64,000 nt of DNA from an uncultured Saprospiraceae bacterium (GTDB lineage Bacteria; Bacteroidota; Bacteroidia; Chitinophagales; Saprospiraceae). Under the pieces are notes generated by a model that made no database searches, was not told the DNA's origin, and saw only the letters and a program-made list of their open reading frames with translations. This document shows, in pieces, positions 9,459 through 35,200 of the stretch. Location: assembly GCA_938001865.1 (NCBI GenBank), contig CALLAW010000055.1, positions 1 to 64,000 on the forward strand, read 5' to 3'. The position numbers were made by a program, and so were the translations under genes. Within the stretch, counting starts at the first letter, position 1. Each line of letters starts with the position of its first letter.

Positions 9459-9759
9459 CTGCAAACAATGGCTTGCAGAGAGTAGAACAGCAGGTATTCT
9501 AACCTGTCCTACAAATAAAAATATTAAAACGAGATGTAATCATCTCATCAAGATCTGGTCTGGTAGTTCAGTTGGTTATGATGACTGAGTGGTCTGCAGA
9601 GCAGAATTGTGAGATAGCAATCTCACAATAATGAAGGAACTGCAAACAACGGCTTGCAGGGAGTAGAGCAGCAGGTATTCTAACCTGTCCTACAAATAAA
9701 AATATTAAAACGAGATGTAATCATCTCATCAAGATCTGGTCTGGTAGTTCAGTTGGTTA
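9459..9759 (+). repeat. 120-bp direct duplication (9459-9578 and 9640-9759) in the tRNA-Asp leader
   Basis: Two near-identical 120-bp blocks 181 bp apart start at CTGCAAACAAyGGCTTGCAG and run through TATTAAAACGAGATG into the first 22 bases of tRNA-Asp. Block 1 therefore contains a truncated tRNA-Asp copy (9557-9578) that diverges after GGTTA. Each block has a CTGCAA/TTGCAG hairpin, a GAGATG-TAAT-CATCTC hairpin, and a 15-mer (9490-9504; 9671-9685) exactly complementary to tRNA-Asp 9755-9769. A perfect 10-bp hairpin (9606-9629) lies between them. Confidence 0.9.
9557..9578 (+). pseudogene. Truncated tRNA-Asp 5' fragment
   Basis: The 22 bases are identical to the acceptor 5' strand and D-arm start of the intact tRNA-Asp at 9738, then sequence identity stops. 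It cannot fold into a tRNA. Part of the leader duplication. Confidence 0.8.
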
Positions 9760-9811
9760 GAATACCTGCCTGTCACGCAGGGGGTCGCGAGTTCGAGTCT
9801 CGTCCAGACCG
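9738..9811 (+). tRNA. tRNA-Asp (anticodon GTC)
   Basis: A complete cloverleaf: acceptor GGTCTGG pairs with CCAGACC plus discriminator G, the anticodon arm CCTGC-CTGTCAC-GCAGG carries GTC, and the T-arm has GTTCGAGTC. The 3' two thirds (from 9762) is repeated at 31166-31216, so this gene was the integration target; the insertion restored an intact tRNA at the left end. Confidence 0.97.
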
Positions 9812-9812
9812 C
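9762..9812 (+). other. attL: left 51-bp direct repeat of the integrated element
   Basis: The 51 bases from ATACCTGCC through CCAGACCGC are identical to 31166-31216. They span the anticodon arm to the 3' end of tRNA-Asp, the standard target of tyrosine-recombinase elements. The element lies between this repeat and its partner. Confidence 0.92.
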
Positions 9813-13500: not shown

Positions 13501-13942
13501 AGTTCATGAAACAATATATGGTTACAATAGAGATAGTTCAACTATAGATTATATGCACAATATTGCACAATACTGTCCTTCAGACATTGGCAAGGTCATT
13601 TTTTATGCAAGAGATTACATGAATTCAATAAATGAGAAAGAGTATATAAATGAATGTCAAAACACCGCAGTTGTTCAAAGAGAGAAAAGCAATATTTCAA
13701 CTAATGAGTTTGAGATTTCAATTTATCCGAACCCTGTGTACAATACTCTCAACATAGACACAGACTTAAAGCAAATTTCAAAAATTTCGTTGTACAATCT
13801 CTCAGGTATAGAAGTTAAATCAGCATCACTAAATATCGGAATCAAAACTACAATTGACGTAACTGATATACCTATTGGTATGTATATCATTACAATACAT
13901 TCTAGTAAACACACCTATACCCAAAAAATTATTATTCAATAA
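10535..13942 (+). CDS. Large extracellular beta-helix protein with T9SS sorting domain, apparently 5'-truncated
   Basis: The frame (1135 aa) opens at a GTG with no signal peptide and enters directly a DUF11-like domain (VTIEYEICNNRDYPLNEIEL), followed by a second one near residues 100-190. Residues about 330-800 form repeated short strands with N-rich turns typical of right-handed parallel beta-helices. A helical region follows (870-1050). The last 75 residues have IYPNPVYNTLNID and end in TYTQKIIIQ, a type A T9SS C-terminal sorting domain. A T9SS cargo normally needs a Sec signal, so the 5' end seems to have been lost at about 10500-10535, or the true start is elsewhere. Function unknown; adhesion or glycan binding is possible. 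Confidence 0.6.
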   Translation: MFSCLGEIVTIEYEICNNRDYPLNEIELVVSLSEGLELLDIGSLGDGFETIPDDTLLPEDCKNYSILLEIGEDVSLYEQDLNASLTISPDGCNKTEIIDYIIVPTENAQTLNFGYVVNEDNKILLQMEVCNISDDLVENLILQLSIPSSITIDNVGEFYPVQDGVETNLTLLPGECKNLVVRILDPNCICDIFDFTANLLSCNSPSETIEFDSDEFYFLGVSAQFSNDCSLLLAEILDSEICFDYQWKVNSQSPISGTTIDEELLQLGNNTIEVTAVAPCGTTSIEVYNIDNDCINLECPTDNETIYVLDDNNNLFSDVFNDPANGLTNPVINQTFYIENNLEIDMGVTFQNCTFFFENGSELNISEADDQVSFLFSHLTACDQFWDGVDLEDSANVQFRFGTTIENAITAIEASSGAVDLVFYRSEILDCLTGGRFVNADHDILFDESNITFNEFNIDLPSGSVPRGLIFNEVDNVSRIRRSHFTNLFTGINISGSAVEVKNGCTFSDIGNSNELIWDEIAGNATAIEANDNSNVMVNHGNVFANCSRGIVASNSNLSITHQNVFDVFTHAIACEGPTSIVDVRNNEIVAKRVGIGFTTGFIEIYDNEIQISNSGFGNIGIGIDLSRLVGGHINSNSITMLSGTDGMQIRNCKRVGVRENTILQDGVIINMRDGIAIEGSELNMLFRCNRIANATNTDWHFGISVNLSNDIDLILNEIEGQWIGMDFHELSGMHFLIENNFIGGHLGLDISSVLGEQEHHGNEWQDGWDIAVRSDLSADDNTNSRFITDCNVDKYCPDPNLVEAIGQLFDDQDGVVTHSTPCTNNPGDDDEEVNLHDPIDELEFLCEGIMNNDSLSCEEQWLENYQLYSLVKSIKDTTKLTKTRCLNAFLVGIASTDIVTFYTIDSLLTSNIDSNYLLDIDSLFNGLLIAVDDSDDNAANLYSQIIKTQSTKADSLWNNQLNVADSLLTTIRDTCMLTEVWKTVFETIVHETIYGYNRDSSTIDYMHNIAQYCPSDIGKVIFYARDYMNSINEKEYINECQNTAVVQREKSNISTNEFEISIYPNPVYNTLNIDTDLKQISKISLYNLSGIEVKSASLNIGIKTTIDVTDIPIGMYIITIHSSKHTYTQKIIIQ

Positions 13943-13962
13943 AGTCGTATCTTTCTGTAATT

Positions 13963-19230: not shown

Positions 19231-19764
19231 CTATCTCGACCTTCTCGATTTTCCTATTTTAAGATGCTTTTTTATGACACTGTTTTTAAGTTCAGGGTAG
19301 GTGCTTATCATATATTCTTCGAGTTCTCTTTTTATATTGGAGAATTTCGATCTAGAAATCCTTATTGATTTCGATGATTCTCTCTCATTAGATGACAATA
19401 GGAAATGTACATGAGGGTGAGCAGTGTCATAGTGTGGAAATGCTAAACCTAAACCATCAGTACGTTTTTGAAGATACTGGCGAGCTAGATCTTCCATGAT
19501 TGTTGGATTAGAGATAATTGTTTCTTTATCTAGATTGGAGAAACTTATTATTTCGTGATACATTGCTATTGTGGAGCGATTGTTCTTTGTTCTATATGCG
19601 TCGTTCTTCTTAAAAGCTGCAATGATATCTCCTTTGCTATTATTACCAGAGTCTATGTTGTGGAGTATTATCCAAGATAGTTTTCTGTCTTGATCCTTAT
19701 CTAGAATGTATTTAACTGGCTGTGCATAGTTGTTAGATTTCCTTGTGAGACTTTTTATTATCAT
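19231..19764 (-). CDS. Relaxase/mobilization nuclease (MobA-like), short
   Basis: The 177-aa protein starts MIIKSLTRKSNNYAQPVKYI and contains HYDTAHPHVHFLLSSNE, the metal-binding HxH motif (motif III) of MobA/VirD2-type relaxases. Tyr13 or Tyr19 could be the nicking tyrosine. It ends in a basic tail IGKSRRSR and has no C-terminal extension; many relaxases of this group are longer, so a truncation or a minimal form is possible. Its start overlaps the MobC stop (ATGA). Last gene of the minus-strand transfer operon. Confidence 0.82.
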   Translation of the reverse strand: MIIKSLTRKSNNYAQPVKYILDKDQDRKLSWIILHNIDSGNNSKGDIIAAFKKNDAYRTKNNRSTIAMYHEIISFSNLDKETIISNPTIMEDLARQYLQKRTDGLGLAFPHYDTAHPHVHFLLSSNERESSKSIRISRSKFSNIKRELEEYMISTYPELKNSVIKKHLKIGKSRRSR

Positions 19765-20357
19765 AAGCTGTCTAGGTAGTCAGCAAGGTGCTTAATTAGC
19801 TTCTTAATTTTCATCTTGTCGTACCTCACTTCTTCCCAATCAAGATTTAGCATTTTCTGATTTGGTTTACTTAGATATTCTTCTAGTTCATTTCTTAAGG
19901 CTTCAAGTTGGTCTTTCATGATCTTGAATCCATTCAAAATCCTAATAAGGTTACTCTTGTCAGTCTTTATAGTTCCAACGTCAGAATTTTGCCTCAATGA
20001 TGATAAGTGCATTTTGTGTACAACTTGATTTATATTATTCCCGATTTTATCTATAGACACTTTGAGTTTTCTTATTTCTTCAGGATTATGCGGTAGGTAC
20101 TTCTTCTCCTGATATGCAACAATTGATTCCACCATTAGCATATTAAGAGAGTATTTAGGGTAATTCTTTTTTAGTTCTTGTATCTTCTTGTATTGCTTCT
20201 TGGTTAGTCTAATTGTTAGTTTCTTACCACCAATCCTTCTCCTGTTATATTCTCTATAATATGCTTTTTTATACTGCTTCTTAAGAGTGTCTACGTCTAG
20301 ACACGATACGTCTTTCTTTAATTGAATATATTCTCTTTGTGTCGGAAAATCTTTCAT
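19761..20357 (-). CDS. mobC: MobC-like relaxosome accessory protein
   Basis: The 198-aa basic protein has a ribbon-helix-helix-like segment KKLTIRLTKKQYKKIQELKK and the typical MobC stretch IDKIGNNINQVVHKMH. It would bind oriT DNA and help the relaxase. The gene overlaps both neighbours through ATGA junctions (stop TGA), showing translational coupling of coupling protein, MobC and relaxase. Confidence 0.8.
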   Translation of the reverse strand: MKDFPTQREYIQLKKDVSCLDVDTLKKQYKKAYYREYNRRRIGGKKLTIRLTKKQYKKIQELKKNYPKYSLNMLMVESIVAYQEKKYLPHNPEEIRKLKVSIDKIGNNINQVVHKMHLSSLRQNSDVGTIKTDKSNLIRILNGFKIMKDQLEALRNELEEYLSKPNQKMLNLDWEEVRYDKMKIKKLIKHLADYLDSL

Positions 20358-21883
20358 TCTTCTTCATCTGTTGTGAGTAACTGATTGAGTTGTTCCTCAA
20401 AGGATAGGTGTTTGGCTAGATTAATGTTGACAGCCTGTTTGAAATTTATTCTTTTTATTGTACCACTAGCATGTGTATGTTTCACTGGTGATAGTTTGCT
20501 GACTAAGTTGCCATCATCTTTTCTCAGATTGTATTTTCTCTTGAGCCACCATGATCTATATAGTGGCTTCATCTTTATAAGAACAGGCAGGTTATTAGCT
20601 GAGACAAATAGAGCAGTATTTGCTGGTAGTCTTCTAATTTCATCCTTTGTCATCAGTGGCCTACCATTAAATTTGTCATTGTTATCCTTACCACCTTGAA
20701 AAGTAGTTATACCTACTAAGGACTCTTTGATATAAGTCAAAGTCTTATTTGATTTAATACCCGCGAGCATTATCCAATGGCTGCAATTGTTGCAGATTAT
20801 TTCGCTCACACTAGTATCATACCTATCTGTAAGTTGATCTAAGTTCTGTAAGCAATGGAAGAGCATAACCTTTTTGCTTCTTACTGTAGAAATGATGCTC
20901 TGATAGTTCGGAATTGGTAGTAGTTGAGCAAACTCTTCTAGCATAAAAACTAAAGGTTTATCTGTCTTGTTTAATGGTGTATTAATTATGTCATTGAAAA
21001 GCCTAGACAGAAGTAATGTAATAAATGGAGCATAAGTTGATTCTTTGCCAATAGGTAAAGCTAGAAACAAAGCAGATCTAATTCTTCTTATGTCGGCTAT
21101 TGATGGTAGTGTTGTATGTGTTTGTATTTTTAGTAATGCTGAAGGTGTAAAAGGAATCATGACTGACATTGCTCCAGAAACAATGCCATGAAATATTTTT
21201 TCATCTTGATTGAGCATCCTATCAATGCTCAACATTGTTTCTTCGTCATCTGTTTGATGGTGCATCCATTGTCCTGTTTTTTTGGGGAATGCCTGCAACT
21301 GTTTTATTGTTTGTAGTATGTTAGGCAAATGAAGATCTTCATTTGAGTCATGGAGTACTTGAGCAATCAGAGATATCATTTCTATAGTTCCATATCTCCA
21401 TATACTTTCTGTATTCGATCCCTTATTCACCATGTCATACATGTCAGTTACCAATCCTTGGAATTCAGAAGGCTTTAGAGCATCAAATGGATTCCACGAT
21501 ACTGAGTTGTTAATGTCTTGGAGATTTAGGACGTAGACTTGCATATCCTGTGTCTGCATCCATCCACTGCAAAGATTCCATAGTTCCATTTTTGGATCAT
21601 TGATTACAAGTGAGTTTCCTTTAGCTGATAGATGGTATACATTTTTAAGAATCAAGTTTTGGGTCTTTCCTGAACCTGTTGGAGCCACAAGTATCGTATG
21701 CTTATAACTTTCTTTTCTACTAAGTGACTTGAATCCAATTTTAACCCCCTTGTTGGATAGCTTCAAGATTGAAGATCTTTTATCGAATCTTGCTGATCCA
21801 TAGTCTACTTTTTTGATTCGTGGAATCACAAAGCTTACGAGAAAGAGCAAGGTTAGAATTAGTGCAGTTATTATGTTTATCAT
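20354..21883 (-). CDS. Type IV coupling protein (VirD4/TraG family)
   Basis: The 509-aa protein starts with one hydrophobic helix (about 4-20), has Walker A APTGSGKT at 67-74, INDPKMELWNLC, a Walker B-like PLVFMLEEFAQL, and MLFHCLQNLDQL, all standard for VirD4/TraG ATPases that deliver the relaxase-DNA complex to a conjugation pore. The element has no visible type IV secretion apparatus, so it should depend on a helper for transfer. ATGA overlap with MobC; 7 bp after the preceding small membrane protein. Confidence 0.88.
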   Translation of the reverse strand: MINIITALILTLLFLVSFVIPRIKKVDYGSARFDKRSSILKLSNKGVKIGFKSLSRKESYKHTILVAPTGSGKTQNLILKNVYHLSAKGNSLVINDPKMELWNLCSGWMQTQDMQVYVLNLQDINNSVSWNPFDALKPSEFQGLVTDMYDMVNKGSNTESIWRYGTIEMISLIAQVLHDSNEDLHLPNILQTIKQLQAFPKKTGQWMHHQTDDEETMLSIDRMLNQDEKIFHGIVSGAMSVMIPFTPSALLKIQTHTTLPSIADIRRIRSALFLALPIGKESTYAPFITLLLSRLFNDIINTPLNKTDKPLVFMLEEFAQLLPIPNYQSIISTVRSKKVMLFHCLQNLDQLTDRYDTSVSEIICNNCSHWIMLAGIKSNKTLTYIKESLVGITTFQGGKDNNDKFNGRPLMTKDEIRRLPANTALFVSANNLPVLIKMKPLYRSWWLKRKYNLRKDDGNLVSKLSPVKHTHASGTIKRINFKQAVNINLAKHLSFEEQLNQLLTTDEEE

Positions 21884-23145: not shown

Positions 23146-23949
23146 TTATTGATCTAATATGTACCGCACTGCGTTTTCTATAGAAGTCATCTTGAGGTGT
23201 TTGTATCTTTCAAGGTTCCCAGATTTCAAGCTTGTATTTACCACTATCAGCTTTACATCATCTGGTAGTGAAGAAGGAAATTGACTATGAGACCTAAAGT
23301 CCATTCCATCAGAGATTATTATGATGTACTTTTTAGGATTTGATAACGCTACAGATTCTTCAAGCATTACCAGTTTTGCGAGTTCAACGGCAGAGGCGAT
23401 ATCAGAAGCTCCTTCGATATTGCTATAGTCATAAATTGGAACAGCTTTCCTATCAAATTCCTCTATTGAGTAGAGATTGTTTCCAGAATTCCCGTTCTTA
23501 ATCTCTGAGACTTTCTGTTGATGTCGTAGAATGCGTTTTTGATACTTTTTGCTATTCTCTCCTGCTTTCTTTTGAGGGAAGGGAAGCTGATTAATATGGC
23601 TATACCTCGCAAGGTGAGATTTTGAGTTATACCCTATCTTTCCTAGCACAATTTCCCCTCCCGAAGTCTTGACTAATTGAAGTAAAGGAGCAATATGTCG
23701 TCTTTCTAGCATAGGTATTCCAGCAGCGTCAATAGAGCCACTATGGTCAGCGAATAGCACAACCTTAAGGTGATTTGCGGTTTTTACTTGATTGTTAATT
23801 ATGGGTATTCCTACAGAAGTAGTACTTGCATCTTTAGGAGTTGGGGGCTCTACTCCACAAGCTACGAAGAGTGTAGAATGTAAGATAACTAAGCAAAAGA
23901 GCTTAAAAGCTACTATTGGAGTCCTTGGATTTAATTTTGTTGTCTTCAT
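23146..23949 (-). CDS. VWA-like lipoprotein
   Basis: The 267-aa protein has a lipoprotein signal with LFVAC, lipidated Cys31. The sequence KVVLFADHSGSID fits a von Willebrand A beta-strand with a MIDAS-like DxSGS (Asp-His-Ser-Gly-Ser). A later KKYIIIISDGMDFRSHS fits the VWA strand carrying a second MIDAS Asp, and a DIASAVELAKLV helix is also seen. It overlaps the radical SAM gene by 4 bp (ATGA), so the two are coupled. A surface or periplasmic metal-binding adhesion module is suggested; a role in mating contact is an inference. Confidence 0.7.
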   Translation of the reverse strand: MKTTKLNPRTPIVAFKLFCLVILHSTLFVACGVEPPTPKDASTTSVGIPIINNQVKTANHLKVVLFADHSGSIDAAGIPMLERRHIAPLLQLVKTSGGEIVLGKIGYNSKSHLARYSHINQLPFPQKKAGENSKKYQKRILRHQQKVSEIKNGNSGNNLYSIEEFDRKAVPIYDYSNIEGASDIASAVELAKLVMLEESVALSNPKKYIIIISDGMDFRSHSQFPSSLPDDVKLIVVNTSLKSGNLERYKHLKMTSIENAVRYILDQ

Positions 23950-24923
23950 AACGTTACTTTAGTTTTATGATTGATTGAATATTTAGTCGCGTGAATGTTG
24001 TTTTTGTCTTTAGTAAATACTTTGGATATGCCATGTATCAATTGAAGTAGGTCATTGTCCATAATTGATCCTGCGTTTGTATAATTGAGTTCACTATTAA
24101 CCCCATATATCTTTCCTCTGGGATCTATGAAAACATATCTTCCGTAAGCGGATTCTGATTTTTGAGTCTGTATGTCGAAATTAAGTCTGGCATGATATCT
24201 ACTGTCTACTTCATTGACTATTGAAGCAAATTTTTCTGTAGTTATTTCGTAGGCATCTTTATTGATTTCACCATAGCTAAAAGGGCTGAATTGATACAGT
24301 TTCCAGCGGTCTATAACATTATTATAAGGGTAAAGCAAATCTCCAATACCCGATATCCCTTTAATGTTCTTCTTAGAAACAACTGTTCTAACAGTTGTTT
24401 CTATCTCTGGATATAGCTTCAAAATATCCAAGGTGTCAAAGAAGGATTCCCATTTGCTTAGGTTACCCGCTCTCATTTCCTTATTGATTTTAGAATTCTC
24501 GCCATCTAGAGGTATCCCAATATCATCTACAAATTGGAGTATGTCTTTGTATCTTCTAGGAAGTAATAAAGTGTTTGAGCTTAGAGTGGTTCTATAGCCT
24601 ATTGATTTAGCATAGCTTAGAATTTGTGCTAAATCTTTTCTGAGAAGTGGTTCACCGCCTGTAAAAACTACTGACCTTGTCCCGAATGCTCTAAAGAACG
24701 CTAGTGTAAAAAACCAATCTCGAGTAGTAAGACCATCATCCATAAGGTGATCTGGCCCCCAACAAAAGGTGCAAGCAAGATTGCACTTTGCAGTTAGATT
24801 AATATCAATATTTTTCGGAAAAACATTCCTGAATTTGTCAATATAGAATGAATACATCATTCTAAATGTCTCTAGTAGTTGTGAGGTAGGGATTGAAGTC
24901 CAACGAATTTTAGGTATCTTCAT
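23946..24923 (-). CDS. Radical SAM protein, first gene of the transfer operon
   Basis: The 325-aa protein carries the [4Fe-4S]-binding motif CNLACTFC (Cys47, 51, 54) followed by WGPDH, a GGEPLLR SAM-binding motif and LSSNTLLLP. A C-terminal half without clustered cysteines argues against a SPASM domain. The viperin signature is not present. It overlaps the VWA lipoprotein gene and heads a seven-gene operon ending with the relaxase, an odd place for a radical SAM enzyme. Substrate unknown; modification of the coupled lipoprotein is speculative. Confidence 0.82.
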   Translation of the reverse strand: MKIPKIRWTSIPTSQLLETFRMMYSFYIDKFRNVFPKNIDINLTAKCNLACTFCWGPDHLMDDGLTTRDWFFTLAFFRAFGTRSVVFTGGEPLLRKDLAQILSYAKSIGYRTTLSSNTLLLPRRYKDILQFVDDIGIPLDGENSKINKEMRAGNLSKWESFFDTLDILKLYPEIETTVRTVVSKKNIKGISGIGDLLYPYNNVIDRWKLYQFSPFSYGEINKDAYEITTEKFASIVNEVDSRYHARLNFDIQTQKSESAYGRYVFIDPRGKIYGVNSELNYTNAGSIMDNDLLQLIHGISKVFTKDKNNIHATKYSINHKTKVTL

Positions 24924-24990
24924 GTTGAATTAATTTGATTCTCTGTTGGAGCCGGCCAAAGCAGTTAGCAGAGAGTTAGTAATGTATGAT

Positions 24991-25019
24991 AGATCAAGTT
25001 TTACTTGGTCTATTTTTTT
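24991..25019 (+). terminator. Possible terminator hairpin (+ strand)
   Basis: AGATCAAG, TTTTA loop, CTTGGTCT and then ATTTTTTT form an 8-bp stem (one G-U) with a U-run on the plus strand. No plus-strand gene precedes it, so its client is unknown; a short RNA starting near 24925 is possible. Confidence 0.35.
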
Positions 25020-25059
25020 GTATATAGGAAGTTCTCAATTTCTGAGAGCTACATTATGA

Positions 25060-25257
25060 TTAATAGTATAAACTCAAAGCAAACTTTGGTCTGATTACCA
25101 TAGCAGTCCATTGATTGCAAGATGTGCAGAAAAGTACTTTACTAGTTCTGTATCTTCCGCAACCACATACTTTTATCCATCGTGGCGTTTGATTATTTGA
25201 TATTTGTGGAATCTGAGCAGTTTGAGCTTGCTCACAGCTTTGTTTAAATCTAAACAT
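25060..25257 (-). CDS. Possible small zinc-ribbon-like protein
   Basis: A 65-aa frame starting MFRFKQSCEQ contains VCGCGRYRTSKVLFCTSC, giving CxC-x9-CxxC spacing as in zinc ribbons. An upstream ATG at 25296 would extend it to 78 aa. No strong neighbour link or promoter is visible, and the frame could be chance. The rest of the region 24924-25806 holds only the hairpin at 24991, the RNA candidate at 25373-25549 and the promoter at 25753. Confidence 0.3.
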   Translation of the reverse strand: MFRFKQSCEQAQTAQIPQISNNQTPRWIKVCGCGRYRTSKVLFCTSCNQWTAMVIRPKFALSLYY

Positions 25258-25359
25258 AGTTTGTGAATTTTGATGTAGGAATAGCCTGAGAGGCAATTAG
25301 TTACTAAGCATTCAAGTTGAACACTATACATCAAAACACCATATGAGGAGGTTTTTTAC

Positions 25360-25367
25360 TACCTTTG
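25360..25367 (+). promoter_or_regulatory. Candidate -7 box (TACCTTTG)
   Basis: A perfect TAnnTTTG sequence on the plus strand inside an intergenic region. No convincing -33 element was found at 19 bp. A transcript starting near 25373 would end at the strong terminator at 25520-25549. Confidence 0.4.
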
Positions 25368-25372
25368 TACTA

Positions 25373-25549
25373 TTGAAAAAACGCTTGCATTTAAAGCGAT
25401 TTTTTATAAAAAGATAGAGCCTCAGGGGGGCGAGTCTTGTGTCAATCTTTGAACTTGTAGTTGTTGATGAACTACTTAATTAAAAGGTCTTAGATTTTTG
25501 TATGAGTTCTCCTGTAGCCAGCACTTGATCTTTATCAAGTGCTTTTTTT
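25373..25549 (+). ncRNA. Candidate small RNA of about 175 nt
   Basis: Bounded by a TACCTTTG box and a strong terminator, with no ORF of note. Contains an early CGCTT/AAGCG hairpin and a CCTCAGGGGGGCGAG segment, G-rich compared with the AT-rich surroundings. No known RNA family recognised. It could instead be a leader of the downstream operon (starting 25807) with an attenuator, but that operon has its own promoter at 25753-25783. Confidence 0.4.
25520..25549 (+). terminator. Strong Rho-independent terminator
   Basis: AGCACTTGAT, CTTT loop, ATCAAGTGCT make a 10-bp perfect stem followed by seven T residues. No protein gene precedes it on this strand, which supports the RNA candidate. Confidence 0.8.
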
Positions 25550-25752
25550 GTGGCTTTGCTTAAGATAAAGTTAATAAATATAAATTATAAGGACAATAAA
25601 ACAACTTAAAATTTCTCCAATAAAAAGATTAAATAGCATAAGATGTTGATATACAGAGGTGTATGTAAATTTGCAATTTCTAATAAAATCCCATGTAAAT
25701 TAACAGTGTGATGCATAAATAGTTAAATGCTTCATATAATTACTGCCATTTA

Positions 25753-25783
25753 TTGCCTTATGTGCCGCTAATTACTATCTTTA
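25753..25783 (+). promoter_or_regulatory. Promoter of the radical SAM/transporter operon (TTG-N20-TATCTTTA)
   Basis: TTG at 25753-25755, 20-bp spacer and TATCTTTA at 25776-25783 approximate the Bacteroidota promoter. The TTG had been a possible start codon of the next ORF; read as a -33 element it places the true start at the ATG at 25807. Confidence 0.5.
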
Positions 25784-25806
25784 CAGACAAGAAAAAACAA
25801 CGTAAT

Positions 25807-27045
25807 ATGGCAAGAGAATACTATACTCTAGGCTCAGTTGAGGAGGACAGGCTTTTTTTTGAGGAGATAATAAAGCTTCTTAAAATAAGAATGGCTACTG
25901 AGGGATGGAGGAATAATTCTCTTGAGCTTTTGGCATATCTCAAGTCAAAGTATGGGCTCAAATTAACGACACCAAAAGTCAATAAATTACTAAAGGGAAA
26001 TATAGAGGACTTTAACGTATTTCAGAAGAAATACGAAATTGGTTTTAGAGATCTCTATAAGTACGAGCCAGTCCAAGTGAAAAAAGATATTCTTAAAAGA
26101 GCAGATTTTCTAGATTATTATGACATCAACAAAGTGTCAACACTTCAAATGATGAAGGCTATGACTGGGGGTCAATTTTGTTTTTTCTTTAATACCTACT
26201 TAGACCAAGAAGATTGGCATAGTCCATTGATACATTTACATCAATCAATACAGAAGACAACTGAATATTACATAAACTATAAGAACAAAGAATTTAAACA
26301 AAGAAACTTTAGAATAATGTTCTTGTCTTGGACTGAAGAGCAGTTGGTAGAAAATCTGTACCCAAAGCTAGAAGACGAAATTCAGAAGGGGTTTTTCTAT
26401 CAAAATTTTGATCTATCAGTTCATGTACACAAAGCACTAGGCATTAATCTTGCAGTTATTTGTCTTGACCAATTAGCAAAAATTATAATCAAGAATCAAG
26501 ATTTCTTTAATAATATTATCGTCTTAAGTGCACTTGGCTTAACGAATATCTATGAAGCCCTTAATTTAAATGTTTCTGATAGAGAAACGAAAGTTGTAAA
26601 ACAACTTAAGCTGGACTTAGAAGCTATGAGTGAAGTTCCAACAAGTAGGAGCAATAATCCAACTGATCATTATATTGGATTAGATTATCTAGTAATAAAG
26701 AAGGAGTACGAAGAGAAAAGAGACATTTGGGTTGCATATAAAGATGAGAGACTTGGATTATCATTCTCATCAATGAACTCTGAATTTGCTGAGGATTTCT
26801 ATAAGTACAAAAAAAGATTTTCAGATTTAATAATTAATGAACTTACTAAAGAACAACCTTCTGATAGAATGGAATGGAATATTCCTGAGGAGGGATCTGA
26901 AATAGACGAAGAAGAAAGAGTCAAATTAGAATTAAAATTTTACCATTTACTAGATTCTACTTCGGTATGTTCTTCAGAAGATGTGAAACAGCTAGTCTTT
27001 AAAGATGAATTTGTAGCATCTAAAAAACTTAAGAAATTTCAATAG
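25807..27045 (+). CDS. Hypothetical protein, first gene of the MiaB-like/transporter operon
   Basis: The 412-aa soluble protein starts MAREYYTLGSVEEDRLF. It is rich in charged and aromatic residues. An N-terminal part (LELLAYLKSKYGLKLTTPKVNKLLKGN) could be a helix-turn-helix, but this is not certain. The C-terminal part is acidic. No family recognised. The stop TAG is immediately followed by the TTG start of the radical SAM gene, so expression is coupled. Regulator or structural partner are both possible. Confidence 0.6.
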   Translation: MAREYYTLGSVEEDRLFFEEIIKLLKIRMATEGWRNNSLELLAYLKSKYGLKLTTPKVNKLLKGNIEDFNVFQKKYEIGFRDLYKYEPVQVKKDILKRADFLDYYDINKVSTLQMMKAMTGGQFCFFFNTYLDQEDWHSPLIHLHQSIQKTTEYYINYKNKEFKQRNFRIMFLSWTEEQLVENLYPKLEDEIQKGFFYQNFDLSVHVHKALGINLAVICLDQLAKIIIKNQDFFNNIIVLSALGLTNIYEALNLNVSDRETKVVKQLKLDLEAMSEVPTSRSNNPTDHYIGLDYLVIKKEYEEKRDIWVAYKDERLGLSFSSMNSEFAEDFYKYKKRFSDLIINELTKEQPSDRMEWNIPEEGSEIDEEERVKLELKFYHLLDSTSVCSSEDVKQLVFKDEFVASKKLKKFQ

Positions 27046-28146
27046 TTGAATACGATATATAATATACACAATGGTTGTGAATCTAATCTTTATGATTCTG
27101 AAAAGTCTAAACTGGACTTTCTTAAAAGAGGTTACGCCAAGGCTGAAACTAAAGAGGATGCAGATGTGATCTTATTCCATAGCTGCACATTCTCGCAAGA
27201 GAAAGAGGATGAGTCGAATAGGATCATTAATGATTTAGTTGCTAAAGGAAAAAAAGTAATTGTATCAGGCTGTTATCTGTCGGAAATAGAAAATTTAAAC
27301 AGCGTTGAGTACATTAGGCATGAGGATTTAGAAAAAAGGTTTGGAGGCTTTGATCATGATTTGAAGTTATTGGAAGCTCATCAGAAGAAAAACGGAATGG
27401 ATTACAATTATCCTTTTGTTCAAATATCAAAAGGCTGTTATGGTTCATGTACATTCTGTAGTATTAAGCAGGTAAAAGGCGTTCATAAGAGTAGATCTGT
27501 AGAAGACATTCTATATGACATTGAAGTACGAAAAGAATTCTCAGGTATTAAACTTGTTGGAGAAGAGGTTGCTGGTTATGGTCGAGACATCGGCTTGACC
27601 TTGCAGGATTTAATTCTAATAATAGTGGAGCACTATCCGAACTTGAAAATTAAAATGGGCAGTCTGAATGCAAAGATGCTAAAGGTGTTTACTGATAATG
27701 AATTAAAAATATTCAGTCACCCTAACATTTCTGGTAATGTTCATATACCAATTCAGAGTGCTAGTACTTCAGTTTTGTCTGCTATGAAAAGAGGATATTC
27801 AATCGAAGAGTATGTTACTATATATAATACACTGAAATCCATAGGGGTCAAAAATATTTCAGGAGATATAATTATTGGTTTCCCGAATGAAACAAAAGCT
27901 GACCATCAGCTGAATTTAACAATGATGGAGAGTTATGATTTTAATTTTATGGAAGTGTTTATTTATCAAGAGAGACCAGGTACAAAAGCTGCGGCAATGA
28001 AGCAAATTGATTATCCAATAAGAAAGATGCGAGCTACTGAGATTCTGGCTAGTTATCTTGATAGGTACAGTGCATCAAAGAATATACCTTTGCAACAACT
28101 TATGCGAGGACAGCCTATTTTTAATACAAATTTTAATTTTATATAA
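27046..28146 (+). CDS. MiaB/RimO-like radical SAM methylthiotransferase without TRAM domain
   Basis: The 366-aa protein has the UPF0004-type N-terminal domain with three cluster-ligand cysteines, C11 (NGCESN), C47 (HSCTFS) and C76 (SGCYLS), and the radical SAM motif CYGSCTFC (Cys131, 135, 138). It continues with HIPIQSAS, MKRGYSIEEY, IIGFPNET and EVFIYQERPGTKAA, all conserved in MiaB, MtaB and RimO. It ends soon after, so the RNA-binding TRAM domain of these enzymes is missing, and the gene is not the housekeeping MiaB. The TTG start directly abuts the preceding stop codon. Followed by a 60-aa protein and a transporter. Confidence 0.82.
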   Translation: MNTIYNIHNGCESNLYDSEKSKLDFLKRGYAKAETKEDADVILFHSCTFSQEKEDESNRIINDLVAKGKKVIVSGCYLSEIENLNSVEYIRHEDLEKRFGGFDHDLKLLEAHQKKNGMDYNYPFVQISKGCYGSCTFCSIKQVKGVHKSRSVEDILYDIEVRKEFSGIKLVGEEVAGYGRDIGLTLQDLILIIVEHYPNLKIKMGSLNAKMLKVFTDNELKIFSHPNISGNVHIPIQSASTSVLSAMKRGYSIEEYVTIYNTLKSIGVKNISGDIIIGFPNETKADHQLNLTMMESYDFNFMEVFIYQERPGTKAAAMKQIDYPIRKMRATEILASYLDRYSASKNIPLQQLMRGQPIFNTNFNFI

Positions 28147-28147
28147 A

Positions 28148-28330
28148 ATGATTGAATTGCAATTAAGTGAGTCAGTAGCTAATAAGCTCAAAGCAGGAAA
28201 TGTTACTCTTGATGATCTTAAGAATTATATAAACAAGCACAAATTCAGTTTCGCTATTTGTGAAGAAGAAGAGGATCAGGAATTTTTGAAAAAATCATAT
28301 GAGTACAAAAGAAAAGACTTGGAGCAGTAA
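28148..28330 (+). CDS. 60-aa small protein between MiaB-like enzyme and transporter
   Basis: ATG at 28148, two bases after the upstream TAA. Sequence begins MIELQLSESVANKLKAGN, continues to FAICEEEEDQEF with one Cys followed by four Glu, and ends YKRKDLEQ. It overlaps the transporter gene by 32 bp. The longer frame from 28058 lies inside the upstream gene and is not used. A small acidic protein between a radical SAM enzyme and a transporter recalls RiPP precursors, but no known leader or core repeat is visible; a regulatory small protein is equally possible. Confidence 0.6.
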   Translation: MIELQLSESVANKLKAGNVTLDDLKNYINKHKFSFAICEEEEDQEFLKKSYEYKRKDLEQ

Positions 28331-29810
28331 TCTCTTCTTTATTCTTGCTACATTGGGAGCATCAGTAGGCCTTGGTAACCTTTGGAGGTTCCCATACATG
28401 GCATACGAAAATGGAGGTGGTTCATTTTTTATACCTTTCATAATTTGTTATTTTCTAGTAGCTCTTCCGTTAATATTTCTAGAATTTGGTATGGGGTTTT
28501 GGTCTAAAGGATCAGCTGCGACAGCGTTTAAAAAAAATTCTAAGAAAACAACGTGGGTTGGCTGGTGGTTACTGGTAACTACGTTCGTGATTGTATGTTA
28601 TTATTCTGTGATTATGGGTTGGTGTTTTCAGTATGCTTTGCATAGTATCGGTCAAGATTGGGGTAATGATCCTTCTGGTTTTTTCTACAGTCAAATAGTT
28701 AGAATTTCTTCAGGTGCGACAGATGTTGGAGGAATCAGTATAAAATCAGTAGCTTCATTAATTGCCCTTTGGGTAATCACTTTTCTTGTTTTAAGAAAAG
28801 GAATAAAAGGCTTATCTACCTTCTTGCTAATTTCTGTACCTCTCCCTATAATATTAATAGTTGTCTTAGCTTTTAGAGGGGTAAATTTGCCAGGAGGAAT
28901 GGAAGGTTTGACCTATTTCCTGAAGCCTAAATATGACGAGTTTTTCAGTATTAGCGTTTGGTCTGCAGCTGCATCGCAAGTGATATTGTCTTTAGGAATA
29001 GGAATGAGCCAGATGGTAGCGTATTCGTCAAGAAGAAAGGAAAGTAGTAATAATGTCAAATCAGCATTCGCACTCATAACAGGTGATTTTCTTTTTTCTC
29101 TTTTTGCAGGGATAGCTGTATTTGCAACATTTGGAGCAATGCAAGCAAATTTAGGAATTAATATCGGTGAGGCTGCAGGTGAATACAAGGAACTTAAAAG
29201 TCTTACATTAGCATTCGTAACTTATCCAGCTGCGATATCCAGTTTGCCATATGCTTCATTTTGGGGATTTGCATTTTTCTTTATGTTAGTCCTTTTAGGC
29301 ATAGATAGTCTATTTGCAGTTGTTGAAGCAAGTATGACAGATCTTGAAAAGCTTTTCCCGAAAATAACTAGACAAAGGTTAATCGGACTTTTTTGCTTTG
29401 TTGCATTCTTAGGAGGTCTTCCGTTTTCGACAGGAGCGGGATTATATTGGCTTGATATTGTAGATCACTGGATTGAATATTATGCTATCTTCTCTATTGT
29501 ATTCCTTCAGTGTGTCTTTTTTGCTAACTCTTCAAAATTCACGGAGCTTGCAAAGAGTTTAAAATTCAATATTGATTCCAAGTTTTTTAAGATTTGGAAA
29601 TTCATGCTTAGGGTTGCATTGCCTTTTTTATTTTTTGGGTTTCTAATTAGCAATTTCATAGAAGAAATGAATGTGCCGTATGGCAAAGGACAGTACGCTG
29701 AAAGCCTATTATTGTATCTTGGGTGGGGTGTTATGTTTTTTGCTATAGTTTTAGGAGCTATAATTTCAAAGTATTTTAATAAAATTGAAGACACAAATTC
29801 AAAAGTTTAA
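28299..29810 (+). CDS. Sodium-dependent transporter, SLC6/NSS (SNF) family
   Basis: The 503-aa membrane protein starts MSTKEKTWSSNLFFILA and has the family signature ATLGASVGLGNLWRFPY with NGGGSF in TM1-2. About 12 hydrophobic segments follow. Substrates of bacterial NSS proteins are usually amino acids or similar amines, taken up with sodium. It overlaps the 60-aa gene by 32 bp and ends convergent with the integrase gene, sharing the bases of both stop codons at 29807-29810. Unusual cargo for a mobilizable element. Confidence 0.9.
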   Translation: MSTKEKTWSSNLFFILATLGASVGLGNLWRFPYMAYENGGGSFFIPFIICYFLVALPLIFLEFGMGFWSKGSAATAFKKNSKKTTWVGWWLLVTTFVIVCYYSVIMGWCFQYALHSIGQDWGNDPSGFFYSQIVRISSGATDVGGISIKSVASLIALWVITFLVLRKGIKGLSTFLLISVPLPIILIVVLAFRGVNLPGGMEGLTYFLKPKYDEFFSISVWSAAASQVILSLGIGMSQMVAYSSRRKESSNNVKSAFALITGDFLFSLFAGIAVFATFGAMQANLGINIGEAAGEYKELKSLTLAFVTYPAAISSLPYASFWGFAFFFMLVLLGIDSLFAVVEASMTDLEKLFPKITRQRLIGLFCFVAFLGGLPFSTGAGLYWLDIVDHWIEYYAIFSIVFLQCVFFANSSKFTELAKSLKFNIDSKFFKIWKFMLRVALPFLFFGFLISNFIEEMNVPYGKGQYAESLLLYLGWGVMFFAIVLGAIISKYFNKIEDTNSKV

Positions 29811-31048
29811 ATCTCAACTAATCCATCTTGAGCTTCATCCAGCACTGATATATCAAATCCTTTCAAGTAGATCTGAGTTGTTTTAATACTTTTATGTCCC
29901 ATCATTTGACTGATTACTTCGATAGGTTGTTTGTTTTCAAGCAGATGTGAGGCGAATGAGTGCCTAGCATGGTATGTACTTATTGACCCAAGTTCAGATG
30001 CTGATGCTAAGTCTCTTAAAGCTTTATTACATCGTTTCATAGCGTTCTTAACAGCATTATACTTTTGCGTTTCAGACTGATCTAACCTCAACACATTAAA
30101 AATGTAATCCTCATTTGATTTTCCTAGTAGATACTTATCTAATATGGATAATAACCTTCCGTTGATCTTGATAGATAAATGTTTACCTGTTTTAGCCCTA
30201 TTGTATTCAATTCGTCCGTTTGGTTTGATGTCAGAAAGCTTAAGATAACACATGTCTTTAAACGACATCCCATATAAATAGTAAGATCCAAAAAAAAAGT
30301 CTTTGGCTCTTTGATGCCAACCAGTCTTGCATTCAGCTCCAGCCAAGGCTTTGAATTCCTCCTTTGTTAAAGCTCTCTTGATTGTTTCTTTCGACTTTAT
30401 TTTATATTTTCTAAATGGATTACTTCCTTCGTCAACTGCACCTGTTAATCTTGCCTTGTTATATAATGCTCTTATGGCTCGCATGTATACAGAAAGTCCA
30501 TTTATAGCCTGATCTGTTTTATTGCGTTCCATATACCATTTTTCAAATTTTATCAGCCACGTAGAAGTAATGTTGGAAAGTGGAAAGTCAACAGGAGTCT
30601 CTTTTTTATTCTTTGAGAATTCTTTGACAGCTTGATATGCAGAAGCGTACCATCTAGCTGTACCCAACTTGTTTTCTTTCTTTAAAAGTTGGATATGACT
30701 TTCGAAGAAGCCAAAAGTCAAGTTAGTTGTTGATTTGATAAGTAGTTCTTTAATTTCTTTATGAGAATGCGAAGCGTCTATCCTATCGTTTGCGACAAGC
30801 GAATCCATTTTTGATTCTAACTCTAACTGAAGAGATTTGAGTTTTCTATTTTGTACTTTATATCTGTCTCCATAGCTTTTTTTCACAAAGGGATCATTTG
30901 AAGACCAGTGTTTAGAATTTACACTTAAGCCCGAACCTAGGTCTATTGTTTTACCAAAGACTATAGTTCTTAATATAACTGGATAAGTACCATCTTTCTT
31001 TTTTCTTCTTTGGTCTAGAAAAGGCTTTACTGAGAAGTCAATCTTCAT
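29807..31048 (-). CDS. Tyrosine recombinase (integrase) of the element
   Basis: From MKIDFSVKPFLDQRRKK (ATG at 31048) the protein is 413 aa with an N-terminal arm-binding domain, a SAM-like core-binding domain (TWLIKFEKWYMERN) and a catalytic domain. Catalytic residues seen are HARHSFASHL (HxxR), MMGHKSIKTTQIYLKGF (His and nucleophile Tyr). The first catalytic Arg is not in the expected place (YLYGMSFKDMCYLK instead of GLR), as known for the CTnDOT integrase group. A start at 31072 would translate the TTGCGTG repeats, so 31048 is preferred. Located next to attR; it should catalyse tRNA-Asp integration. Confidence 0.92.
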   Translation of the reverse strand: MKIDFSVKPFLDQRRKKKDGTYPVILRTIVFGKTIDLGSGLSVNSKHWSSNDPFVKKSYGDRYKVQNRKLKSLQLELESKMDSLVANDRIDASHSHKEIKELLIKSTTNLTFGFFESHIQLLKKENKLGTARWYASAYQAVKEFSKNKKETPVDFPLSNITSTWLIKFEKWYMERNKTDQAINGLSVYMRAIRALYNKARLTGAVDEGSNPFRKYKIKSKETIKRALTKEEFKALAGAECKTGWHQRAKDFFFGSYYLYGMSFKDMCYLKLSDIKPNGRIEYNRAKTGKHLSIKINGRLLSILDKYLLGKSNEDYIFNVLRLDQSETQKYNAVKNAMKRCNKALRDLASASELGSISTYHARHSFASHLLENKQPIEVISQMMGHKSIKTTQIYLKGFDISVLDEAQDGLVEI

Positions 31049-31066
31049 TTGCGTATAATTTGCGTG
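31049..31066. other. Right-end paired TTGCGTR heptamers (candidate integrase arm sites)
   Basis: TTGCGTA at 31049 and TTGCGTG at 31060, 11 bp apart, match the left-end pair at 9858 and 9869: 19 of 22 bases are identical over TTTGCGTnnnAnTTGCGTGAAA, in the same orientation. They sit right upstream of the integrase ATG, so binding could also control integrase expression. Confidence 0.5.
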
Positions 31067-31165
31067 AAACATATGGTTTTAAAGATACCAACAAATCCTC
31101 AAAACTGCTGTAAAACCTAGTAGTTGTGTCACATGAAATCAAATATGATCATATAGAATTACAAT

Positions 31166-31216
31166 ATACCTGCCTGTCACGCAGGGGGTCGCGAGTTCGA
31201 GTCTCGTCCAGACCGC
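31166..31216 (+). other. attR: right 51-bp direct repeat (tRNA-Asp 3' remnant)
   Basis: Identical to 9762-9812. It is the original 3' part of the chromosomal tRNA-Asp, followed by its original terminator, and marks the right end of the element. Confidence 0.92.
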
Positions 31217-31250
31217 AAAAGCCTTTAACACATCGTGTTGAAGGCTTTTT
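31217..31250 (+). terminator. Original Rho-independent terminator of tRNA-Asp
   Basis: AAAAGCCTTTAACAC, an ATC loop, then GTGTTGAAGGCTTTTT form a 14-bp stem with one G-U pair and a U-run, directly after the tRNA remnant. Confidence 0.85.
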
Positions 31251-31294
31251 GCATTAATTATAGAGGATCCACTCAAAACTAGGGAGGGTCTGAT

Positions 31295-31368
31295 GCCGAC
31301 TTAGCTCAGCTGGCTAGAGCAGCTGATTTGTAATCAGCAGGTCGGGGGTTCGAGTCCCTCCGTCGGCT
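31295..31368 (+). tRNA. tRNA-Thr (anticodon TGT)
   Basis: Cloverleaf: acceptor GCCGACT with CGTCGGC plus discriminator T (one T-C mismatch at pair 7-66), D-arm GCTC...GAGC, anticodon arm GCTGA-TTTGTAA-TCAGC with TGT, and T-arm GGGGG-TTCGAGT-CCCTC. Followed by its own terminator. Confidence 0.95.
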
Positions 31369-31453: not shown

Positions 31454-32209
31454 TCATTTTCCATTAAGATCTTCCGTGTTAATCTCAAGCATTTCTAATT
31501 CTTTAATACTCCAATCACAGCAGAGTGCAGCCATATATTGACCTTCGATATCAAGATTGAATACTTTCCATCTGTTGCATTCTTCTTGATTCCAATGGAG
31601 TGACATGAGATTGTGATATCCATCATCGAATGGTCTCATTGTAATCTCAGAGAGTGGTGCCTGCAATCCCATGCCGATTGCTTTAATATAGGCTTCTTTT
31701 TTGGTCCATATCCGATAGAATGCATCATGTAGATTTTCAGTGTTGAGAGAAGTAAGGCTGGTTATTTCTCTTTTGGAAAAAACGGAATTTGCGATACCGA
31801 GATAATCAATCGAATCATTGCAATATTCCACATCGATACCTATTGGTTGCCTTCCCATGCTGATCAGGATGATCTCTCTAGAATGTGAAAGATTGAAGTG
31901 AAAGTTGGGATAATTGAGGAAGAATGGTTTACCATACTTCCCAAACCCAATTTGCAATTTACTCGGATTGACATCCAAATGATGAGATGCAATCAGTCTC
32001 AGAGCATACCTCGCTATCAAGTAGGTATCACGATCATTTTTGTATTTAAATTTTTCTGCTCTCTCTATTTCGATGGATTCTAGACTATCACACTTGAGTA
32101 GGATCTGGTCTAGGTGAGTGAGTTGAGCCTTGTCAATCTTGTAGACGTGGACACACTCGGACTGTATGTCACTCCAGATGCCACCTTGCTGCCATGATTT
32201 AACTCTCAT
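31454..32209 (-). CDS. 4'-phosphopantetheinyl transferase, Sfp type
   Basis: Activates carrier domains by attaching phosphopantetheine from CoA. The 251-aa length is that of Sfp/Gsp enzymes. Motifs: FGKYGKPFF (P1 region), FNLSHS, PIGIDVEY (Mg-binding Asp and Glu) and WTKKEAYIKAIGMGL (catalytic Glu and Lys). It overlaps the 3' end of the large NRPS gene by 11 bp, so it belongs to the cluster and should prime all three carrier-containing proteins. Last gene of the minus-strand hupE-NRPS-PPTase operon. Confidence 0.93.
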   Translation of the reverse strand: MRVKSWQQGGIWSDIQSECVHVYKIDKAQLTHLDQILLKCDSLESIEIERAEKFKYKNDRDTYLIARYALRLIASHHLDVNPSKLQIGFGKYGKPFFLNYPNFHFNLSHSREIILISMGRQPIGIDVEYCNDSIDYLGIANSVFSKREITSLTSLNTENLHDAFYRIWTKKEAYIKAIGMGLQAPLSEITMRPFDDGYHNLMSLHWNQEECNRWKVFNLDIEGQYMAALCCDWSIKELEMLEINTEDLNGK

Positions 32210-35200
32210 AATCTATCAGAGTATTACTTACGCTAGTTGCCATCTCTACCGCAGACTGACCTTGGAAGATTTCTAGATGTGTTCCATCTATTGTCTGTGA
32301 TGTCACACCATTCATAGCGAGGAGTTCCCAATTATCAATGTGATAATTTTTAAACTTGTCGTTGGCATTTTGGCTACTCCTGATGAGACTGATACTGATC
32401 TCTTGAGGTGACCATTGATACCTAGACATCAACTCCCTCAATTGCTTGCCTGTATTGAATAAGTGTTGGCTCTGGGCATCTGTAGGAGCCTTAAGATTGG
32501 AGTACTTAAAGTAATTAGAAAACGCTTCTCTTAGTTTAGGGAGATTGAACGTGACTACCCAATTGAGCCACTTAGAGAGTTTAGAGAATTCCTTGAAGTG
32601 CGGTGGTGGTGAATCGATGATGTAGATTACACCAGTCTCAGATTCTAAGAGTTTAGCAATCTCGAATGTCACAGCATTACTGAAGCACGTCCCAAGTAAG
32701 TGATATGGTCCAGAGGGATATTTTTCTTTAATTTTCTCGACATAAAATTGTGCCATCTGGGCAATTGATTCGAAGGTCACCTTACTCCCATCTAGTCCTA
32801 TAGGCTGTATCCCATAGACTGGACGATTAGGATCCATCGCTTCTGCAAATTCTTTGTAAAACATGATGTGACCTTCACCTGCATGGAAGCAGAAGACTGG
32901 TGGAAGATGCCCTTCCTCTTTGAGTGGGTAGACGCATTCCCAACTGCTGAGATTATCATCTCCGCTGAGTTGTGTGGCTAGTGCTCTGATCGTCTTATGC
33001 TTGAGTAATAGGATAGGTGAGACATTGAGTCCAAATCTTTCATTGATCCGATTGAATATCCTGACTGCCTGTATCGATTTCCCTCCGATGTCAAAGAAGT
33101 CATCATCTAGTTGGATATCATTAACCTCCAAGGTGTCTTCCCAGATGATTTTAATCGACTGTTCGAGACTCAGCGAATCGTCTAATTGAGATTGGCGAGT
33201 AGGAGACGTCATCTCTTGATCAGAAGTAATCTGATCTGCTACGAATGTTGTGCTGATATCAATCTTTGCCTTCCCCTCTGTGACCTTTATGTTTTCTAAT
33301 AAGTTGAGGAGGTCATTGTTGAGTTGTGAGATTTCAGCTTGACTGTAGAGAGCCGCATTATATCTCAGGCTTACCTTGATCTTGTCTCCAGGGACGATGA
33401 CTAGGCAGAGAGGCACTGTAGTACTGATGTCACTGCTAAAGTTCTTGTAACTGAGGCCTTCTTGAGTCGATTCTGGCGGTGCAAAGTTCTCTACGATGAC
33501 CAAGGTGTCAAAGAGATCAGAAGAGTCGAGCTTAAGGTCTTCAAGGCTAACTGCATCTCTGACTAAGATTTCATTGAGAGTCTCTTGCAGTCCAAGGAAG
33601 TCTATTTCATGGTCTTGGAGATGGTTGATCTTGACTGGGAGTACCGAGCTGAACATGCCCACGAGCTGATCCATGGCTTCGACTGGGAGAGACCGACCTG
33701 ACTGAGTCAGTCCTACAACTACTTGATTTCGCTGGAGGTATTGACTCAGTAGCCATGACCAGATCCCGATGAAGTAATTGTTGATTGTAATCTTTGAGTC
33801 TTGGATAGATCGCATAAGGTCAGTACTCTCTTCGCTGCTCAGAGTGTGGACTGTCGACTCAAATGTATAGGTCGCAGTATTACCTACTTTGAGTTTGCTT
33901 GGTTGGAGATTCCTGAGATATGCATTCCAAAAGTCAAGACTTTGATACTCATCTCGGACAGTATCAAAGGTGTCTTTCCATGTGGTTAGCGTTGTGATTT
34001 CAGGTAGGGTAGCAGGCTTTTTATTCGCTAACCCATTATAGATCTTCATGAGATCAGAGAAGAGATTACTCGTGCTCCATCCATCAAGTGAAATGTGGTG
34101 ACAGACAAGTAAGAGACTACACTCCGATGGTTTGTACTCAAAGCAGACAAGCTTGTTGGGTGGTGCTGTACCTAAGTCTAAGCTAAGATTTGACGGGTCA
34201 TTCTTCCAGTCTGTGATAGTCTTGTCTATCTGATCGCCATCAACATTGACATACTCTATAGGGGACGTTATCTCCTCTAGGATGACTTGCAGCGGAGCAG
34301 ATAATCCCTCCCAGACGAAGTGTGACCTCAAAGAATCGTGTCGATTGGTCAGTGTATCCCACGCTTGTTGTAAGATCGTACGATCTATCGTCTCTGTTAA
34401 GTCTACTGTCGCGACGATCAGCCCTTGGTCTGATGATGGATTTTGTAAGTGGTGAAAGAGGATTGCAGACTGTGTCGCAGTCAAGTCTATCAGCTGCGAT
34501 AGGTGTTGATTGTTATCTGCTACATGTTGATTGACCTTGACGAGGTCGGCTTTAGTCAGTCGATACTTATAGTCCGATATCGTCTTGAATGGTGTTGCCT
34601 GATCAAGTGCTTGTGCAGACTGCTCAAGAGTTTCAACTAAGCGATCTAGCCAGACTTGCATTTCTGCATACTGCAGATTTGATCCATCATATGAGTAGCC
34701 AATCTCTAGTTTGCCATCTTTGATCCAACTGTTGATTTCGATAAGGCAATCTCTTTCACTTTCGGCAGCTCGCATCCCTTCTCTGACGAATCTCACATCG
34801 ACAAGGTTGTCATAGTCTGATGCTTCCTGCTCTCCGAGGTGATTGATGATCACAGTAGGTCTAGCTGGTCTCTTGAGTTTATGAGAGAGATACTGGAGTA
34901 CGCCATAAGAGACACCATCATCGGGCACTTGTCTGAGTTGATCTTTCACCTCACTCATGGACTGTAGAGCTTGTGATGGAGCAGTTACCTCCAAGTATAC
35001 TGGATAGTAAGTTGTATGCCAGCCTATAGAGTTAGTCAGATCCACACCGTCGATATTCGCCTTGCGACCATGCCGTTCCACCATCAGTGTTAGCCCAGTT
35101 TCTTGTGTTTGTTCTTGGTAGACTTGTATGAAACTCCCGATGATCAGTTCATCGATTTTGAAGTCACTGACTTTGGTTCCCTTTCTTCGTAGTGTGTCTA

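Follow-up and report, generated by a model that had tools for sequence, protein, structure and literature searches.

According to the sections of PMC10702137 that deal with the chemistry of the family, methylthiotransferases place SCH3 on an unreactive carbon with the help of two molecules of S-adenosylmethionine (SAM) and two clusters, and they fall into four clades whose substrates are tRNA A37 and ribosomal protein S12; RimO is the sole protein-modifying member named there. In a passage of PMC9177418 an antiSMASH call was put down as a false positive, the cluster being thought to serve ribosomal methylthiolation, which should make one wary of reading such genes as peptide-modifying. Here we describe a gene set from an uncultured Saprospiraceae bacterium in which an enzyme of this type, lacking a TRAM domain, is encoded in close succession with a 412-amino acid (aa) orphan protein, a 60-aa protein and an SLC6-type transporter. 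The window, that is the whole stretch of contig CALLAW010000055.1 that was analysed (64 kb), contains a 21.4-kb integrative mobilizable element inserted in a tRNA-Asp gene, and this element carries the gene set. The set is intact and operon-like, and consists of:

25807..27045, + strand: gene 1, encoding a 412-aa orphan protein without a recognised domain (ATG start, ends in TAG)
27046..28146, + strand: the enzyme, a TRAM-less radical-SAM protein of MiaB/RimO type, 366 aa (TTG start)
28148..28330, + strand: gene for the 60-aa protein, with its ATG one base past the enzyme stop
28299..29810, + strand: SLC6/NSS sodium-dependent transporter, 503 aa (PF00209)

An initial annotation of this DNA had described the same four genes, with the 60-aa gene directly downstream of the enzyme and overlapping the transporter gene, and its coordinates and this arrangement were confirmed; the overlap amounts to 32 nt. 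The gaps of 0 and 1 nt, together with this overlap, tie the four genes to each other. Gene 1, for which an alternative TTG start at 25753 would give a product of 430 aa, lies in the same reading frame as the enzyme, and the two are separated by a single TAG that is followed at once by TTG (27043-27048). This TTG is the sole ATG, GTG or TTG codon between the TAG and the codon for C11 of the enzyme, and the first ATG of the enzyme does not occur before residue 118. Readthrough of the TAG, or an old fusion of gene 1 and the enzyme across it, is conceivable.

All four frames are open and exhibit gene-like codon use. The scoring was trained on 22 chosen frames of the window, each coding window being scored without its own gene. 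Over its initial 50 codons, the 60-aa frame gave 0.233 per codon, compared to 0.164 (standard deviation (SD) 0.079) in 273 coding windows; off-frame windows, the scores of which are pulled down by stop codons inside them, had a mean of -0.492 (SD 0.28), and none of the 546 reached the score of the 60-aa frame. When the same stretch was read with a shift of 1 or 2 bases, in a version of the scoring with a slightly different training set, the values were -0.22 and -0.35 per codon. For gene 1, the enzyme and the transporter the in-frame scores were 0.165, 0.108 and 0.079 respectively, with the other two forward frames below -0.46. On codon use, a chance origin of the 60-aa frame was rejected, and the gene was rightly regarded as real.

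The enzyme itself is, judged by its sequence, a divergent methylthiotransferase-type protein that we do not file as RimO, MiaB or an enzyme of a ribosomally synthesised and post-translationally modified peptide (RiPP). Like MiaB, which acts on tRNA i6A37, it combines a UPF0004 domain (PF00919; 1.1e-13, 51.4 bits vs a cut-off of 27) with a radical-SAM core (PF04055; 4.4e-14, 53.4 bits vs 29.5) and retains the core motifs along with the three UPF0004 cysteines and CxxxCxxC. The six cluster cysteines that had been noted earlier (11, 47, 76, 131, 135 and 138) are all present; they align with cysteines of the MiaB, MtaB and RimO proteins of the host and are invariant in 4/4 rows when the window enzyme is aligned with three TRAM-less relatives. 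As the cluster ligands are complete, methylthiolation chemistry would be expected of this enzyme, with presumably the same core chemistry as in RimO, which modifies an Asp of ribosomal protein S12 (PDB 4jc0). Its best solved relatives are MiaB structures (PDB 7mjz and 7mjv); it is 26.6% identical to the host MiaB over 365 columns, and by BLASTP it is 25-27% identical to the host MiaB, MtaB and RimO alike.

In spite of this shared core, the enzyme fell below the NCBI cut-off of every methylthiotransferase model considered. It gave 209 bits with the general family model TIGR00089 (cut-off 251) and 201 bits with TIGR01578, the model for the archaeal-type tRNA enzyme e-MtaB (cut-off 314.7), which was the second-highest NCBI score. 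With the MtaB, MiaB and RimO models it reached 179, 145 and 142 bits (cut-offs 357, 355 and 357), so that it differs from MiaB both in lacking TRAM and in lying well under the MiaB cut-off. The host MiaB, MtaB and RimO each scored above their own cut-offs.

The claim that the enzyme has no TRAM domain held up: Pfam gave no TRAM match, and the protein terminates roughly where this domain starts in the host MiaB and RimO. The missing Pfam match would be weak evidence by itself, since the host MtaB, which belongs to a tRNA-modifying family, also has none at E 0.01; the host MiaB does have one. Loss of TRAM through a frameshift was considered and rejected, because the 60-aa gene begins one base past the enzyme stop and runs into the transporter gene, leaving no room for the missing domain. 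What did not find support was the further proposal that the absence of TRAM fits a peptide or small-molecule substrate. The host RimO, from the protein-modifying family, differs from the enzyme in having a TRAM_2 domain (3.7e-22), and a TRAM-less nanoarchaeal control, L035 (358 aa), passes both TIGR00089 (337.5 bits) and the e-MtaB model (390.6 vs 314.7 bits). As L035 passes these cut-offs, the low score of our enzyme is not simply a consequence of the lost domain. In the sections of PMC10702137 on specificity, all three domains of methylthiotransferases are described as contributing to substrate recognition, and chimeras locate the choice between i6 and t6 outside TRAM.

Relatives of the enzyme were sought in phylum, family and order genomes, samples that partly overlap, as well as in plasmids, phages and viral contigs. 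Of 395 phylum genomes, 12 were matched at 1e-30, counting its own; in the remaining 11 the identity is 28-32% and the open frames measure 441-475 aa. Only its own gene passed 1e-31 in 298 family genomes, and in 298 order genomes its own gene and one other (a 522-aa frame) passed 1e-29. Matches in plasmids (101 records) and phages (35 records) were all below 60% identity, and at most 30% among the matches listed; the named ones among the matches listed were MiaB, MtaB or RimO, with one product given as 'radical SAM superfamily protein'. Viral contigs, searched twice, gave no confirmed relative. When genome contigs were scanned with a motif pattern, at least 113 stretches were returned, which with 4 viral stretches made 117 loci. 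The enzyme matched 73 of these by tblastn at 1e-3, none of the 4 viral stretches being among them, and at the same threshold gene 1, the 60-aa protein and the transporter matched 0/117.

In the best rows of the scan most frames extend well past the match, the clear TRAM-less cases being L035, L054 (Photobacterium sp. OFAV2-7) and L106 (Bacteriovorax sp. DB6_IX). L054 and L106 resemble the enzyme in having the six cysteines, no TRAM and a score below the TIGR00089 cut-off, and they share with it a C-T-[FY]-C-S-I-K motif that was partly demanded by the scan pattern. They differ in being only 25-26% identical, in having a long linker ahead of the radical-SAM domain and in their neighbours: neither gene 1 nor the 60-aa protein nor the transporter was matched in the surrounding DNA, which for L054 begins at the gene itself. 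By eye, the Bacteriovorax relative is seen to lie among radical-SAM and DegT-like frames (locus L144, 4437-10787), one radical-SAM gene appearing as two overlapping frames, and this neighbourhood looks like a biosynthetic cluster. A lysine after CxxxCxxC is common to the enzyme and the archaeal rows, although this counts for little because the scan pattern demanded that lysine. In other respects the enzyme departs from e-MtaB, as it is bacterial, is found on a mobile element, lies below the 314.7 cut-off and is without a C-terminal part that is present in most archaeal rows having complete frames.

For a tree, rows were taken that had a tblastn score of at least 75 bits, an open frame no shorter than 300 aa and CxxxCxxC. 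This gave 61 rows, of which 47 were kept once 14 near-duplicates, 13 of them archaeal and 1 from the same phylum, had been discarded by eye. Many rows came from the scan, whose pattern already required some of the motif, and they are for that reason no fair sample of the family. The enzyme formed a lone long branch (2.42) in no supported group; its position beside the Photobacterium and Bacteriovorax rows had a support of 55/9 only, which shows nothing. In approximately unbiased (AU) tests, for which the groups were named after the tree had been seen, a placement of the enzyme with the MtaB clade was rejected (p-AU 0.011).

That the gene set is cargo of a mobile element, as had been suggested, is borne out by the following features, which are listed with a hairpin that precedes the set:

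9738..9812, + strand: tRNA-Asp (gtc), the 3' 51 bp of which (9762-9812) form the left attachment repeat
19231..21883, - strand: mobilization genes, comprising a MobA/VirD2-type relaxase, a MobC-like protein and a VirD4-like coupling protein
25520..25543, + strand: terminator-like hairpin of 10 pairs with a T run, lying ahead of the gene set
29807..31072, - strand: tyrosine integrase, 421 aa (PF00589, 1.8e-17; PF13102, 8.7e-14)
31166..31216, + strand: right attachment repeat, a second copy of the 51-bp tRNA-Asp 3' end, 100% identical

Perfect 51-bp repeats thus bound the segment 9762-31216, and Rfam detects a partial tRNA over the right one (31151-31207). The G+C content is 34.0% within the element and 43.2% and 43.3% on its two flanks. 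In the same-genus genome G795 (L153) a tRNA-Asp gene (2616-2690) adjoins a tRNA-Thr gene (2767-2841), and both match the flanks in the window, so the element is absent there and the site is empty. Integrase, relaxase, attachment repeats and empty site, the features by which an integrative mobilizable element is recognised, are therefore all accounted for; of a complete conjugation gene set only the coupling protein was recognised in the element. The integrase was found at E <= 1e-70 in 5 of 288 family genomes including its own, with 38-41% identity in the other four. In two of those four, element-protein matches at 1e-5 were confined to the integrase, within compared stretches of ~20 kb each that lie mostly to one side of the integrase gene.

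The remaining members of the set differ greatly in how well they can be assigned. The transporter is clearly of the SLC6 family, with 311 bits for PF00209 (SNF domain; 1.7e-92, cut-off 27) and 77 bits for NF037979 (cut-off 50), in line with its earlier identification. Among solved structures that carry a name, it comes closest to proline and glycine transporters; its nearest plasmid-borne relative is 33% identical, and its first helix holds a GLGN stretch, which we take to mark carriers of amino acids rather than amines. SLC6 proteins are known as importers. Gene 1 had been called unrecognised, and it was still so after the searches: no domain was found, and there was no convincing relative in the 298 order genomes, the 395 phylum genomes, plasmids, phages or viral contigs, the weak genome matches of 22 and 16 bits spanning 58 and 28 residues. 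Its single-sequence fold was unusable (pLDDT 33.4). The 60-aa protein had no match in plasmids and viral contigs, and in 19 genomes (its own and relatives) only its own gene and five matches with E 0.08-0.8 in larger or broken frames were obtained. Overall, no close relative of gene 1, the enzyme or the 60-aa protein was found in the genomes, plasmids, phages and viral contigs searched. The description of the 60-aa protein as acidic is correct in sign and overstated in degree, as it has 13 D/E and 10 K/R residues, a pI of 5.1 and a single Cys. It has no transmembrane stretch, and three helices are predicted in a loose arrangement (mean pLDDT 61.1). A LysW-type carrier, an acyl carrier and a MetS-type small transporter subunit were set aside for it by eye on the motifs typical of them, the transmembrane check alone being computed; a resemblance to Nif11-type leaders was likewise seen by eye only, with no Pfam match. 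Weak DIX, SAP and BNIP2 matches lay below their cut-offs and were ignored.

Since the host already has MiaB, MtaB and RimO proteins that each score above their cut-offs, a fourth copy would not be needed for housekeeping. The explanation that we tentatively put first is a mobile methylthiotransferase set whose substrate would be the 60-aa protein or a compound derived from it. By analogy with its family, the enzyme would bind two [4Fe-4S] clusters; one SAM would methylate a sulfur on the auxiliary cluster, a second would give rise to a 5'-deoxyadenosyl radical, and SCH3 (or S) would be added to a C-H of the substrate. With less assurance, we suppose that this substrate is not the usual tRNA A37 and is supplied by the gene set itself, the most likely candidate being the product of the adjoining, closely spaced 60-aa gene, with the 412-aa protein as a partner, and that the SLC6 protein may import an amino acid-like molecule that the product uses or to which it is related. 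The 60-aa protein is favoured for this role by its adjacent and closely spaced gene, by its gene-like frame and by the loose three-helix prediction. A RiPP locus would have a small precursor gene beside the modifying enzyme; here a gene-like frame lies in that position, but it matches no known precursor family.

Several observations weigh against this explanation. The 60-aa protein belongs to no known family or precursor family in Pfam and NCBIfam scans and shows no recognised leader/core pattern; its sequence is charged, and its C-terminus is constrained, the last 10 codons doubling as the start of the transporter gene. The 16 element proteins scanned, several of which are without a family, include no recognised exporter or protease, and the set has an importer in place of an exporter; not every RiPP route, it should be said, requires a protease or exporter. 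The searches made turned up the gene set nowhere else. Finally, the AU tests did not reject a placement of the long-branch enzyme row with the RimO (0.151), MiaB (0.215) or e-MtaB (0.323) clades, so that the substrate may also be tRNA or ribosomal. A modification of a small peptide, as first raised from the annotation, is possible but unproven. It is doubtful, too, whether the enzyme represents a fifth kind of methylthiotransferase, directed neither at tRNA nor at the ribosome and dedicated to a co-encoded 60-aa protein or derived compound, with its own helper and amino acid importer. Among the matches listed in a literature search, the coverage of which leaves out most subscription journals, no comparable system appeared in titles or abstracts, and a query for a methylthiotransferase with a sodium-dependent transporter and an operon returned no paper within the same coverage.

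The transporter and the lack of a recognised exporter or protease can also be read in favour of a small-molecule route, in which the SLC6 protein would import an amino acid-derived metabolite for methylthiolation or thiolation by the enzyme, the 60-aa and 412-aa proteins being accessory or regulatory. The GLGN stretch, as in amino acid carriers, and the proline and glycine transporters among the solved relatives are consistent with such a route, as is the biosynthetic-cluster-like setting in which, by eye, the TRAM-less Bacteriovorax relative (L106/L144) lies. However, the specificity of a transporter is not safely readable from sequence, and the only known substrates named in the portion of PMC10702137 on the family are tRNA and ribosomal protein S12. 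We regard this route as somewhat unlikely.

The enzyme might also be an additional, divergent MiaB- or e-MtaB-like protein with tRNA A37 as its target, possibly active during stress or infection, and with no need of TRAM. That TRAM-less L035 exceeds the e-MtaB cut-off, that TIGR01578 is the second-best family of our enzyme and that the e-MtaB and MiaB clades were left unrejected would all fit, and the element also has viperin-like and TrlF-like genes, which are related to families linked to defence. Set against this are the MiaB and MtaB that the host already possesses, scores far under the tRNA-enzyme cut-offs, and the close packing against genes for a small protein and an SLC6 transporter, which would be unexpected for such an enzyme; a tRNA substrate seems to us unlikely. 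A chance or decaying assembly of genes without a common function, the enzyme perhaps once having been fused to gene 1 and then cut by the TAG, is improbable. In its favour are the frame that gene 1 and the enzyme share over a single TAG, the lack of an ATG in the enzyme ahead of residue 118, the other, unrelated cargo of the element, and the failure of the searches made to turn up a conserved neighbourhood elsewhere. Against it, the four frames are open with gene-like codon use and junctions of 0 and 1 nt, and the TAG falls just ahead of UPF0004, ten codons before C11, approximately where the domain starts in the host enzymes. A mobile, TRAM-less and divergent enzyme encoded tightly next to a small protein and an SLC6 importer makes the locus a test case for whether methylthiotransferases may serve dedicated peptides or small molecules.

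The DNA preceding the gene set (24924-25806) consists of ~880 bases with few genes and several terminator-like hairpins, including the one listed above; in 24900-31300 there are 12 such sites on both strands vs 3.1 expected. Rfam gave two matches in 24900-25850, both under their family scores. Beyond this stretch, and transcribed away from the gene set, lies the viperin-like radical-SAM gene of the element (23946-24923, - strand), which is detected as PADLOC pVip at 4e-30 and gives 84.7 bits with the NCBI viperin model; as this is below the cut-off of 180, it is perhaps not a true prokaryotic viperin. The TrlF-family PHP-ATPase (16258-19071, + strand; 627 bits vs a cut-off of 350) is related to the anti-phage protein Ppl and is possibly defence cargo. 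Just beyond the right attachment site (31454-39029, - strand), a 2276-aa nonribosomal peptide synthetase and a phosphopantetheinyl-transferase-like gene were recognised by eye from the translations; in G795, the stretch past the tRNA-Thr gene matches 53.7-63.5 kb of the window and not this region. At the other end of the element, two large cargo proteins (10535-15483, + strand) carry a feature that points towards Bacteroidota, namely Por secretion tails of the type IX secretion system.

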